From assembly GCF_032595075.1 (NCBI RefSeq), contig NZ_CP118735.1, positions 1,020,001 through 1,084,000 on the forward strand: a DNA stretch of 64,000 nucleotides, in the 5' to 3' direction. Below are positions 1,034 to 23,488 of the stretch, piece by piece. Origin of the DNA: Streptococcus sp. 29887 (GTDB taxonomy: Bacteria > Bacillota > Bacilli > Lactobacillales > Streptococcaceae). The position numbers and the translations under genes were made by a program. A model generated the notes under the pieces. That model was not told the DNA's origin. It did not search any database and worked only from the letters and a program-made list of their open reading frames with translations. Positions within the stretch are counted from its first letter, which is position 1; every line of letters begins with the position of its first letter.

Positions 1034-1062
1034 TTGATAGCGTTTTCTAAAAGTGGTATACT
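1034..1062 (+). promoter_or_regulatory. Sigma-A promoter of the structured RNA
   Basis: TTGATA (1034-1039) and TATACT (1057-1062) are separated by exactly 17 bp, which is near-consensus. The predicted transcription start is about 1069. No open reading frame of useful size follows on this strand before the terminator at 1548, so the promoter serves a non-coding transcript. Confidence 0.8.
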
Positions 1063-1068
1063 ATTCTT

Positions 1069-1548
1069 AGAAGAAATCAGATAATGAAGTTGAGATGTTG
1101 AACGCCATCTATCCTGGTTGAAAGGAGTATTCCAGCGTTCATTTAATCAAGCTAACTACTAGCCATTTTCTCCAAAGGACGATGGCTAATAGGGGAAAAG
1201 TCCGTTATCCCTACTTTGATGCCCAAAGGCATCTGTTGGCAAAATGCTTAGCATTCACTCACACTTAGCCTTGCTACCCAGTTCAATCAAAAGTAGGCTA
1301 ATCCTTATTCGTGTCGTAAATACTGTATGGTCAAGGTAGATCCTTGGCTAGCAACCAAGAAAATCAGAAAACCTCTAGTGATTTTCATCATAATAAGCAA
1401 TCTCCACACTTAGACAACAAAATAAGAGGACAATCAAAGACATAAGGGTAGCAGAATAATTACTTAATCATTAACTATTTGTCGTGCAACTTTGGTAATG
1501 GACTTTTCCAATTTAAAAGACAAAAGGGAGGCTGAAAGGCCTCCTTTT
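1069..1548 (+). ncRNA. Large structured non-coding RNA, family not recognised
   Basis: This is a stand-alone transcription unit of about 480 nt between mutY and a convergent gene. Hairpins seen by eye are TGAACGC 1099-1105 with GCGTTCA 1135-1141, TAGCCAT 1160-1166 with ATGGCTA 1182-1188, GATGCC-CAAA-GGCATC 1218-1233, AATGC/GCATT 1243-1255, TTAGCCT 1265-1271 with AGGCTAA 1295-1301, CAAGG/CCTTG 1332-1346 and GAAAATCA 1359-1366 with TGATTTTC 1379-1386. Two long-range pairings tie the molecule together: 1194-1209 with 1494-1509 (16 bp, two G-U) and TGCTACCC 1272-1279, inside a hairpin loop, with GGGTAGCA 1446-1453. It lacks the landmarks of tmRNA, RNase P RNA, 6S, SRP and T-box RNAs. It could be a member of a large ornate class (ROOL, GOLLD, OLE-like), but I cannot assign it. 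Confidence 0.75.
1522..1548. terminator. Intrinsic terminator, probably bidirectional
   Basis: GGAGGC (1527-1532) pairs with GCCTCC (1539-1544) around a 6-nt loop, flanked by AAAA upstream and TTTT downstream. It ends the structured RNA on the plus strand. Read on the minus strand it also has a T-rich tail and can end the S24 repressor gene. Confidence 0.8.
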
Positions 1549-1578: not shown

Positions 1579-2376
1579 TTAGGATTGACTATAGACAGCA
1601 ATTACTCTACCGATTGGACGGATGTCATCTTCCTGGTTTAAATAAATATCCTCATAGTCAGGGTTGAGGGATTGTAAGTAAGAGCCCTTGTATTTTTTAA
1701 CAAAATTTTCCCCATTAACTGAGAAAATCCCAATTGAGTTCAGAGGAATGTCTGGTGTCAGACGAATAAAGAGGTAGTCCCCATCCTGAATACTAGGTGC
1801 CATGGAATCTCCGACAACCTGAGCGATTGTATCATATTGATAATTTTCAGGGATATCTTCGCTATAAAAGGATACTAGGTTGTCAAAGTCTGTATCCTGC
1901 CAGTAGCCAGTACCAGCTGAAACCTTGCCAGGAACAGCCAATTCCGTTCGTTCACGGTAGTCATCTAGATGAAGTACAGTTGCTGATTTAGAATTAGAGG
2001 TTTGCATTGCTGCTACTTGTTCTTGCCCGAAAGCAATCCACCTGTCATGAAATTCACCCTCTAGTGTCTGATCTAAAACTTGCGCTTGCTGAGAAATAGA
2101 TTGTTTAAATTGTCCAAATTGGGCAGGGGTAAGCGTCAGGGCTATAGCTTGGTCGTCATCAAGTTTCTGAACCAAATCAGAAACAGCTATGTTCATGCCT
2201 TTTGCAACCTTCTCCAGTGTTTCCATGGTGGGAAGGAGAGCTTTTTTTGTTTTAGGATGCTGATTTTTTTCTAACATAGAAATATATCCCTTTGTTAAAC
2301 CAGAAAGTTCTGCAAACCTATCCATAGATAGTTTGTTTTTAGTTCGAAATTCTTTTAAGATATCACCTAGAATCAT
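1579..2376 (-). CDS. XRE-HTH / S24 peptidase repressor (LexA/HdiR-like)
   Basis: This 265-residue self-cleaving repressor has an N-terminal HTH_XRE domain (about 1-70, with LTKGYISMLEK as recognition region), a linker, and a C-terminal S24 (LexA-like) peptidase domain. The nucleophile Ser lies in GDSMAPSIQDGD, the general-base Lys in ENFVKKYKGS, and a likely Ala-Gly self-cleavage site in VSAGTGY. Streptococci lack LexA, and HdiR-type proteins perform SOS-like repression. It is divergent from the operon starting at 2506, with a shared promoter region full of GTTTGACA/TTGTTTAAC motifs, so it probably represses itself and that operon. The start is ATG at 2376. Confidence 0.85.
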   Translation of the reverse strand: MILGDILKEFRTKNKLSMDRFAELSGLTKGYISMLEKNQHPKTKKALLPTMETLEKVAKGMNIAVSDLVQKLDDDQAIALTLTPAQFGQFKQSISQQAQVLDQTLEGEFHDRWIAFGQEQVAAMQTSNSKSATVLHLDDYRERTELAVPGKVSAGTGYWQDTDFDNLVSFYSEDIPENYQYDTIAQVVGDSMAPSIQDGDYLFIRLTPDIPLNSIGIFSVNGENFVKKYKGSYLQSLNPDYEDIYLNQEDDIRPIGRVIAVYSQS

Positions 2377-2401
2377 GCCAGTACCTCGCTTTGTTTAACA
2401 T

Positions 2402-2475
2402 ATTATACCACAAGAATATTTTTTTGACAAACATTGTTTAACGTGTTTGACAAAAATCAAAAATGGTGTTATGAT
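2402..2475. promoter_or_regulatory. Divergent promoters and putative S24-repressor operators
   Basis: Plus-strand promoter: TTGACA 2447-2452, 17 bp, TATGAT 2470-2475. Minus-strand promoter: TTGTCA (complement of 2425-2430), 17 bp, TATAAT (complement of 2402-2407). Between and over the -35 boxes lie related motifs TTTGACAAAC, TTGTTTAAC and GTTTGACAAA in both orientations, which are good candidates for operator half-sites. Confidence 0.7.
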
Positions 2476-2505
2476 GGTATCAAATCCTAGTTGGAGTGTG
2501 TAGAA

Positions 2506-2979
2506 ATGAAAAATAATCTTGAGATTACTTGGGCAGATATTTACAGAGAATGGGAAGTCTATGCAGAACATTTTCATTTGCATCCCTTGATGAGCAAGGA
2601 AAGCAAGTTTCAAGTAGTTAGTCCTGAAATGAGTAGAGGTAGTCTGCTAACTTTTCAGCTATTAAATCATTATCTAGAGGATGAAGAAAAGTATGCAGCA
2701 GTATGGCTAGCCTCATTTTGTCGTGATTTAATGCAGGATTATGCTTATTTGTTAAATAGCAGAGCCTATATGTTGGTTAGTCAAGTTTATTTTCAGTCAG
2801 TAAAACAATTTGATGATGGCATTCAAGACTGGGCAAAACCGCTCACGAGATTACAACCAAAGTTATTTATCTCTCACCGAATGTTTGAAAATGTAGACTT
2901 AACCAATCTTGCTTGTCTTGTAGAATTAGCAATGATACAAGCTAGTTTAGTTCAAGCCCAGATGCTGGAAAGAATGTAG
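2506..2979 (+). CDS. Unknown helical protein, first gene of S24-controlled operon
   Basis: A protein of 157 residues that I do not recognise. It starts at ATG 2506, with TTGGAG at 2491-2496 as ribosome-binding site; an in-frame TTG at 2491 is that same SD and is not used as start. The sequence looks soluble and mostly alpha-helical, with no signal peptide, no membrane segment and no cysteine cluster (one FCRD Cys). It is followed after 10 bp by the zinc-ribbon gene at 2990 and driven by the promoter facing the S24 repressor. The two genes probably form a damage- or stress-inducible pair (inference from context only). Confidence 0.75.
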   Translation: MKNNLEITWADIYREWEVYAEHFHLHPLMSKESKFQVVSPEMSRGSLLTFQLLNHYLEDEEKYAAVWLASFCRDLMQDYAYLLNSRAYMLVSQVYFQSVKQFDDGIQDWAKPLTRLQPKLFISHRMFENVDLTNLACLVELAMIQASLVQAQMLERM

Positions 2980-2989
2980 AAAGGTAGAT

Positions 2990-3538
2990 ATGAACATGTT
3001 TATTTGGAATAAGAAAACGACCAACCTCTTGTCAGTTGTAGAATATTGGTCGGACCAATTGCTGGACTTAGGTATTTTAAAGAATACTGAAACATTAAGC
3101 CCTTTTTGCTGGCGCTGCCACAGCACTTGTGGAGTAAAAAATGTTCCGATTGTTTCAGGGAAATGGTTTCATGTAGAAAGCTTATCCAACCAGTTATTGC
3201 TGTGTCAGGCCTGTGAAGTAGAAAAGCCAAAGTCCAAGCAAGCTGATGTTGTTTGGAAATGGTTAAAAGATGAAAGTAGTGAATATTACTGGACCATTGA
3301 GGCCATGAAAGAATACGAAAAACAGTTTCATACAAGTGTTCTACAAGAACTTTGGAATATAGGAATTAGGGATGGAGAAGAGGTAGAAACCCTAGTTCAA
3401 AAAGTGATGACAGATAGACACAAAATAGCTCCATCCTTCAATCGTGCCAGTCTTGCCCAAGCTTTCCGAGTAGAAATTGAAAAAATGCGTAAGGAAGCCT
3501 TTGCAAACTGGACAGGGATATTTCAAATTGCCAGCTGA
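2990..3538 (+). CDS. Zinc-ribbon protein resembling a degenerate HNH domain
   Basis: This is a 182-residue protein. CWRCHSTC (about residues 41-48) and LLLCQACEVEKP (about 74-85) give two CxxC knuckles spaced as in HNH/McrA-type nucleases, whose usual pattern is CWxC...HxIP...LLCxxCHxEaP followed by a Trp-rich helix. Here the catalytic His positions are replaced, so nuclease activity is doubtful. The rest is helical with many charged residues. It is the second gene of the operon next to the S24 repressor. The family resemblance is my reading and has not been tested; a zinc-binding structural or regulatory role is the safer statement. Confidence 0.65.
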   Translation: MNMFIWNKKTTNLLSVVEYWSDQLLDLGILKNTETLSPFCWRCHSTCGVKNVPIVSGKWFHVESLSNQLLLCQACEVEKPKSKQADVVWKWLKDESSEYYWTIEAMKEYEKQFHTSVLQELWNIGIRDGEEVETLVQKVMTDRHKIAPSFNRASLAQAFRVEIEKMRKEAFANWTGIFQIAS

Positions 3539-22890: not shown

Positions 22891-23488
22891 ATCTCATCAC
22901 CTCAGGTAAGGTATTCCAATCTGTTTTAAACTTGAACTCATTAAGCTTTCTCAGAACTGACGATGTTGAAATTGATAGCCTGTGTGCAATATGTGTCATT
23001 GCTTGCTTTTCGATGAGTAATTGGGCGATTTTCTGGTTAACCGCGACAGAGATTTGGTGGTTCTTCTTGACAAGAGGAGTTTCAGCAACCGCTATTTTTC
23101 CGCAATCTTTACACTTGAAGCGACGCTTTCGAAGACGAATAAGCAGTGGGAAACCAGCAGTTTCTAGATAGGGGATTTTGGAGGCTTTTTGGAAATCGTA
23201 TTTAGCCATTTGTCCCTTGCAGGAAGGGCATTTAGGGGCTGTGTAATCCAAGTGACCGTGGAGTTCTAAGTGAGTTCCCATATCATATTCATCAGTGATA
23301 ACGATATTTTTATCTTTAATTCTGAGAAAATTTGTGATAAGATTTAGTTGTTCCATATGAGTCTTTCTAATGAGTTGTTTAGTCGCTTTTCATTATAGGT
23401 CATATGGGACTTTTTTTCTATACTCAAAAAGGCTCCATAATCTCTACAGTGGATTTACCCACTACAGAAATTATAGAGCCAAGAAAAG

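Follow-up and report, generated by a model that had tools for sequence, protein, structure and literature searches.

To our knowledge, few bacterial RNAs of a size and complexity comparable to the one described here are known, and several of these are without a known function. RNAIII of Staphylococcus aureus, at about 500 nt, combines many hairpins with long-range pairing and with SD-complementary strands. OLE, ROOL and GOLLD are large, structured RNAs of bacteria; their functions are described as poorly understood, with pseudoknots named for ROOL and a length of over 800 nt given for GOLLD (PMC12286853). In the window analysed here, a stretch of 64,000 nucleotides from Streptococcus sp. 29887, a first-pass annotation had proposed that an RNA comparable to these three lies beside mutY. 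The likeness proves to be one of kind, the mutY-side RNA being likewise large, structured and pseudoknotted (for the pseudoknots of ROOL, see PMC12286853). ROOL and GOLLD lie in phages or prophages, often near tRNAs, whereas the mutY-side RNA is chromosomal and 3' of mutY; it is also set apart from these two and from OLE by a cre-like promoter and by the absence of any Rfam covariance-model match at the cut-off, theirs included. The mutY-side RNA is also smaller than all three, and, unlike them, it is not known to assemble into homo-oligomeric RNA complexes. Its resemblance to RNAIII extends to size, hairpins, long-range pairing and SD-complementary strands; it differs in genus, in matching no Rfam family and in having no conserved ORF that we could see.

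Among the sRNAs already reported from S. suis, the mutY-side transcript may be one of the 29 that Wu et al. (2014; doi 10.1261/rna.041822.113) described for strain P1/7, as told in PMC4438229. It could even be rss04, an sRNA reported to lower ccpA expression (PMC5862822). The locus is different from that of sRNA23, which is 302 nt long and is placed between the glucosamine-6-phosphate deaminase gene and SSU05_0635 (PMC8667912). A 50-genome survey gives for Streptococcus the idnO, yjbJ and fthC motifs, and the genes described with these place them at other loci; its smtA motif and other candidates are likewise large ncRNA candidates without known function, and the word "suis" is absent from its main text (PMC11109978). 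Searches of the open literature, at the level of listed records and the openings of their abstracts, showed us no prior description of the mutY-side RNA.

Consistent with the earlier claim that the sequence bears no signature of tmRNA, RNase P, 6S, SRP or T-box, none of these models reaches its Rfam gathering score, and a search of Rfam with 1069-1548, the check by which the annotation had wanted novelty judged, brings no family to its cut-off. In a lax scan of 900-1700 the top row scores 28.3 bits (E 0.015) where the cut-off is 55, and it was rejected, as it sits on the terminator end of the RNA. Among 14 relatives' loci only one model reaches its gathering score, Srn266 in L048, and it does so outside the RNA. 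When seven of these loci were scanned at E up to 0.5, the further rows all fell in L059 and were set aside: one is a sub-threshold SSRC8_2 hit on the opposite strand, outside the RNA, and three are miRNA-model rows (E 0.06-0.32) on the long terminator hairpin that directly follows the closing helix on its 3' side. Elsewhere in the window, Rfam finds two copies of the Streptococcus sRNA Srn266, a repeated RNA element (RF02822; 23369-23480 and 34729-34838, plus strand), a group II intron domain (RF02001; 35002-35163, plus strand) near the second of them, and a match to the Listeria sRNA rli38 (RF01470; 51504-51648, plus strand) of 57.1 bits against a cut-off of 49. The Srn266 copy of L048 lies at 211-320 on the minus strand, about 1.2 kb from the RNA. 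The 15-mer AAGTGTAAAGATTGC, probably part of a repeat element, has 14 copies in the own genome, including one at window positions 23102-23116 (minus strand).

The features of the locus are collected in Table 1. The promoter and the terminator-like hairpin that had been claimed are both present, and transcription is predicted to start near 1069. As for the claim that there is no ORF, the gene seems to encode no protein: the longest plus-strand ORFs inside the RNA have 31 and 33 aa, and listings of ORFs of at least 18 aa from 19 loci, compared by eye, reveal no conserved short ORF. At blastn sensitivity its own genome holds one copy of the RNA. The promoter sits at the cre-like site in 30 of 34 related loci by script and in L013 by eye, where the script ranked another site; by count of consensus matches it is not special, with four such promoters in a 1201-base stretch against 3.3 expected.

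Table 1. Positions of the RNA gene and its elements within the window (cre, catabolite-response element; SD, Shine-Dalgarno)
Feature	Positions	Strand	Basis or remark
RNA gene	1069-1548	+	about 480 bases; ends placed from promoter and terminator
Promoter TTGATA-17-TATACT, extended -10 (TG before -10 box)	1034-1062	+	
cre-like operator TGATAGCGTTTTCT, overlapping -35 box	1035-1048	+	13/14 to TGWAARCGYTWNCW
Possible 5' pseudoknot with next helix, GATG (1094-1097)/CATC (1106-1109)	1094-1109	+	
5' hairpin GAACGC (1100-1105)/GCGTTC (1135-1140)	1100-1140	+	
SD-like purine stretch GAAAGGAG, between 5' hairpin arms	1120-1127	+	
Hairpin CTACTAGCCAT (1156-1166)/ATGGCTAATAG (1182-1192)	1156-1192	+	
Closing helix, 5' arm, 16 bp	1194-1209	+	comparison across loci
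Variable local hairpin GATGCC/GGCATC	1218-1233	+	poorly supported: 52-76% of cells paired (MAFFT alignment)
Hairpin TTAGCC (1265-1270)/GGCTAA (1296-1301), loop bears pseudoknot arm	1265-1301	+	
Pseudoknot loop arm TGCTACCC	1272-1279	+	comparison
Hairpin GAAAATCA (1359-1366)/TGATTTTC (1379-1386)	1359-1386	+	weak: 80.5% of cells paired
Possible second pseudoknot CCTCT (1372-1376)/AGAGG (1425-1429)	1372-1429	+	
AAGCAATCTCCACACTT, best conserved of the long unpaired stretches in the S. suis group	1395-1411	+	
Pseudoknot 3' arm GGGTAGCA	1446-1453	+	comparison
Closing helix, 3' arm	1494-1509	+	comparison across loci
Intrinsic terminator (terminator-like hairpin)	1523-1548	+	

Work on S. suis uses the cre consensus given in the table, and at apuA of that species a cre lying over the -35 box is bound by CcpA (PMC3958366). 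At the promoter of the mutY-side RNA, a slightly loosened form of this consensus, the core TG(A/T)(A/T)A(A/G)CG(C/T)TT, covers the -35 box in 31 of 34 loci, where the site agrees with the consensus at 12 or 13 of 14 positions; it is absent from L048, L055 and L056. Because the best match of a locus arises in shuffles at a frequency of 0 to 0.145, often at least 0.1, the evidence rests on conservation and not on single sites. The own genome encodes one protein over the NCBIfam cut-off for ccpA. Control of this promoter by sugar is likely, judging from sequence conservation, and an operator so placed suggests repression by CcpA while a preferred sugar is present; from this we infer the direction of control, in which the RNA is perhaps switched on when good sugars run out.

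The stretch 1069-1548 has an MFE of -131.2 kcal/mol; its shuffles average -101.85 (z -5.09), and none of 100 is as good. Present in the MFE structure is the 16-bp helix that the first-pass annotation had drawn between 1194-1209 and 1494-1509, which we find at exactly that place and which closes the core. It has 10-17 uninterrupted pairs in all 34 loci examined, the anchor and its partner being picked in each locus as the longest helix; when the tail is shuffled and the partner chosen identically, the mean is 5.9 pairs, and 10 or more are attained in 54 of 3400 shuffles (1.6%). The inner letters of the closing helix vary widely, as in CCGTTATC/GGTAATGG, CTTTCGTC/GATGAGAG and CTACCA/TGGTAG. In a MAFFT alignment of the 31 distinct sequences, three duplicates having been dropped from the 34, 92.5% of its cells are paired and 10 of 16 pairs have changed on both sides, even with L048-L050, which stand one base out of register in the alignment, counting against it.

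For the named structure as a whole, 88.9% of cells are paired, as against 33-48% when it is slid, with none of 500 shuffles reaching the observed value, and 22 of 49 pairs have changed on both sides among the 31 sequences. A tree null, in which substitutions are re-dealt along a FastTree tree, gives for the closing helix a maximum over 100 nulls of 61.1% paired and five double changes, against 92.5% and eight observed; this null shuffles over all columns, so that the share of paired cells also goes up when the arms are simply conserved. Our own unsupervised covariation scan of the full-length alignment of 34 sequences returns no pair at E <=1, which we attribute to few independent lineages and to an imperfect alignment. 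The named helices do carry compensatory changes, by which a structured ncRNA is generally recognised, and the RNA is very probably real, with a predicted fold that matching mutations have kept.

Inside the core, the 8-bp match between a hairpin loop (1272-1279) and a downstream strand (1446-1453) is exactly as had been claimed. Measured directly, the loop arm finds a downstream partner of at least seven contiguous bases in 31 of 34 loci. S. minor and S. varani are among these; there MAFFT misplaced one arm and the direct measurement recovered the pairing. Fewer than seven pairs form in L052, L055 and L056. A helix as long as the one observed turns up in shuffles at frequencies of 0.03 (L014), 0.095 (L017) and 0.055 (L022). 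In the 31-sequence alignment 91.9% of the pseudoknot's cells are paired and five of its eight pairs have changed on both sides. The tree null reaches at most 79.0% paired with five double changes, against 91.9% and four observed, so that the double changes alone lie within it. The annotation had argued that chance was unlikely to yield both long-range pairings and that homologues should keep them; the former is borne out, and the latter holds for the closing helix in all 34 loci examined and for the pseudoknot in all but L052, L055 and L056.

Local hairpins had been put at seven or more. Five were compared: the one whose loop bears the pseudoknot arm (97% of cells paired, two of six pairs changed on both sides), the 5' hairpin at 1100-1140 (99.1%, one of six) and the hairpin at 1156-1192 (four of ten pairs changed on both sides), and those at 1218-1233 and 1359-1386, which are weak. 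The 5' domain overall has 96.1% of cells paired in 19 sequences, among which the GATG/CATC pairing is invariant and hence neither supported nor refuted. In the possible second pseudoknot, 94.1% of the cells with letters are paired and no pair has changed on both sides. Three further pairings were rejected by eye: that of TTATTC (3' of GGCTAA) with GAATAA (3' of GGGTAGCA) is broken in L013 and L014, each side of a pairing between GAAAGGAG and UCUCC occurs alone (L048, L049, L052), and the terminators whose 3' strand might pair with GAAAGGAG differ in L019, L119 and L127. In one allele group (L009, L010, L011, L024), about 20 nt of the arm AGAAAATCACAAAAACCT are tandemly duplicated inside the RNA.

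Relatives of the RNA were found in Streptococcus genomes or records numbering at least 33, among them S. suis clusters, S. minor, S. gallinaceus and S. varani; the count is made up of 23 strong, four weak and four mutY-flank cases together with S. minor and S. varani. Of 197 Streptococcus genomes searched with blastn, 18 gave a match, one of them (L018, in G010) a stray 58-base match; no RNA was found in the 4 kb 3' of mutY in that genome (L143). The sequence-only model R1, run over 284 Streptococcus genomes, gave 34 at E <=0.01, 23 of them strong. The weak matches in G280, G107, G121 and G263 are real, with mutY adjoining and motifs shared; L051, L053 and L054 show by eye neither recognisable motifs nor an adjoining mutY and were rejected, and four genomes without a locus and likewise five R1 rows at E 0.003-0.01 were left out. 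The 1 kb 3' of mutY in 60 further genomes yielded four more RNAs (G122, G126, G115 and G059), which R1 had missed in the genus search; its sensitivity is thus limited, and a diverged member outside Streptococcus is possible. Outside the genus, R1 has no match in 196 family genomes (14 hits, all Streptococcus) or 295 order genomes (four hits, all Streptococcus).

A pattern scan of the named genome collection returned 23 stretches, seven of which were dismissed as chance by appearance. The 16 from Streptococcus comprise 11 of S. suis and those of S. minor, S. gallinaceus, S. varani, a record titled S. gallolyticus BSJ31 and an uncultured Streptococcus; 15 of these stretches contain mutY, and the remaining one (L121) starts past it. 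MutY itself was found in all 137 genus genomes. It is full-length and at least 74% identical in 22, and 21 of these have the RNA, the exception being G010; in G013 the RNA lies about 2.6 kb 3' of mutY. In 56 of the other 115 MutY genomes (54 downstream stretches plus G077 and G099) no RNA was seen, the scan giving one weak row at E 0.39. Five proteins neighbouring the RNA in the window are 97-100% identical to those of S. suis 2219, and the own genome accordingly belongs to the S. suis group.

Wherever the fetched stretch reached mutY, the RNA lies 3' of it on the same strand, and this association is kept although the 3' neighbour changes between lineages or inserts intervene. Besides mutY, no gene was seen adjoining the RNA in all lineages. 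Over 18 loci the downstream gene differs between lineages and is often convergent, with no same-strand downstream gene kept across lineages as there would be for a cis-regulatory leader or riboswitch. Pfam identifies the gene 3' of the RNA in L019 and L050 as a phosphoglucomutase gene, in convergent orientation; by eye, an ORF with phosphoglucomutase-like termini follows in L052, L055, L057, L059, L119 and L127 (farther downstream in L017). The neighbour is an S24-type repressor in L002, L008, L020, L021 and L040, and other genes follow in L013, L014, L048 and L049. On the mutY side, two transposase-like ORFs intervene in S. varani and a 272-aa ORF on the other strand in S. gallinaceus. In the window, an S24-type repressor (minus strand) and two plus-strand ORFs without a Pfam match span 1579-3538 and occupy the place of phosphoglucomutase in several other RNA-bearing lineages; the neighbourhood in the main S. 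suis group differs.

The identity of the own RNA to that of L008, L013 and L014 is 0.77, 0.70 and 0.62, against 0.40, 0.36 and 0.44 at fourfold-degenerate mutY sites, the RNA values being flattered by computation over ungapped columns of a free alignment. At 0.46-0.52, in L017, L019, L048, L049 and L052, RNA identity is little informative. The L020 (G117) allele is a mosaic, its mutY being 97% and its RNA 73% identical to our own, which suggests a likely exchange of RNA alleles by recombination.

Two sequence motifs have drawn our attention. The motif RARGGAG, of which the SD-like stretch is an instance, is present towards the 5' end of the RNA in 32 of 34 loci and in 13 of 14 lineages against 1.9 lineages expected, an expectation that is only a guide since the lineages are our own grouping and not independent. 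It is absent from L048 and L059, its distance to the closing helix varies by lineage (about 55 to 214 nt), and the S. gallinaceus copy sits in a different hairpin; given the last two points, it is perhaps not one homologous element. The stretch is often partly, if weakly, paired in single-sequence folds, and by eye no start codon consistently follows it. The second motif, AAGCAATCTCCACACTT, hardly varies within the S. suis group, and its core CAA[AT]CTCC[AG][CT][AG]C is found in 25 of 34 loci and eight of 14 lineages, which indicates that its letters matter. It is absent in S. gallinaceus, in L052, in L057/L059 and in the S. minor/varani lineages; L014 and L019 hold a close variant outside the search pattern. 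A search of five genomes for targets of this strand, with up to two mismatches, gave 40 sites, five being the RNA gene itself; the surroundings of 14 of the 35 outside sites, compared by eye, showed no shared target. Two of the sites, L161 and L163, are terminator-like hairpins that resemble each other.

We read the locus as a structured RNA on the strength of its conserved synteny, of compensatory changes, which the closing helix shows more strongly than the pseudoknot, of selection on the RNA, of a conserved promoter and of our seeing no conserved ORF. This supports the earlier interpretation of a large structured RNA apparently outside known Rfam families, to which it adds the cre-like operator at the promoter of most lineages and the recurring SD-like stretch, and we are highly confident that an independent noncoding RNA gene of a family absent from Rfam lies here. 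Were the element instead to serve mutY or the downstream gene in cis, as a 3' UTR or an attenuator, its closeness to mutY in most loci read would follow, but its own promoter and terminator, the changing and often convergent next gene and the ORFs that separate it from mutY in S. varani and S. gallinaceus make such a cis role very improbable. A mobile-element or phage RNA in the manner of ROOL and GOLLD is just as hard to sustain. One IMG/VR contig, IMGVR_UViG_2698536340_000002 (L024, L138), does carry the RNA, yet this contig, filed as viral, also holds mutY and the S24 repressor, and in L024 an alcohol dehydrogenase gene, host genes that mark it as probably host flank; moreover, 50,697 phage and 72,556 plasmid records give no blastn match, and the RNA has a fixed chromosomal place at mutY. 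That there is no functional RNA, only a spacer folding by chance, could appeal to the empty covariation scan; set against the z of -5.09, the ubiquity of the closing helix, the paired-cell and tree nulls and the RNA identity beside that of fourfold sites, it is scarcely credible.

The rivals that grant an independent RNA differ over how it would act. As a multi-domain regulator like RNAIII, it would use conserved unpaired strands (the SD-complementary UCUCC, and GAAAGGAG) to pair with target mRNAs under sugar limitation. The near invariance of the 1395-1411 strand in the S. suis group and the RNA's own promoter and terminator speak for such a regulator, but that strand is missing from the four groups listed above, and the target search, made for this strand of the RNA in five genomes and viewed at 14 of 35 outside sites, brought no shared target to the eye; we think this doubtful, if worth keeping in mind. 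A different proposal would have the SD-like loop bind the 3' end of 16S rRNA, titrating or parking 30S subunits when sugar is short. The recurrence of RARGGAG across lineages, with neither a consistent start codon nor a conserved ORF seen by eye, speaks for it; the loss of the motif from two loci, its shifting place, its partial pairing and the single copy of the RNA gene weigh the other way, and we hold it to be improbable. We judge equally improbable the bolder form in which the RNA belongs to a new large-RNA class, acting under carbon limitation with both SD-like loop and pseudoknotted core to bind 30S or the initiation machinery; if true, streptococci would possess a catabolite-controlled RNA brake on, or store for, ribosomes.

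Our preferred account is that of a sugar-controlled noncoding RNA that would act as a fold-based scaffold. Its own promoter would drive transcription, and CcpA would probably repress it for as long as a preferred sugar is at hand. Its 5' domain of hairpins carries the SD-like purine stretch, and its core is closed by the long helix, inside which the hairpin loop pairs back to the downstream strand, as comparison across loci shows for these helices. Such an RNA would most likely act in trans as a fold, offering a scaffold to itself or to at least one protein, and not as a simple antisense seed. We favour a scaffold since the closing helix is kept in every locus examined and the pseudoknot in nearly all, while most single-strand sequence is not kept. 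For this mode of action we put the chances slightly short of even, and for the account as a whole we regard the balance as even.

The mutY-side RNA adds a family that current Rfam-based annotation misses. Since it is single copy, sits beside mutY in a zoonotic group, and has a defined fold and a cre-like promoter, its function, partners and three-dimensional structure are directly testable, and that cre-like promoter says in which condition to look for the RNA.
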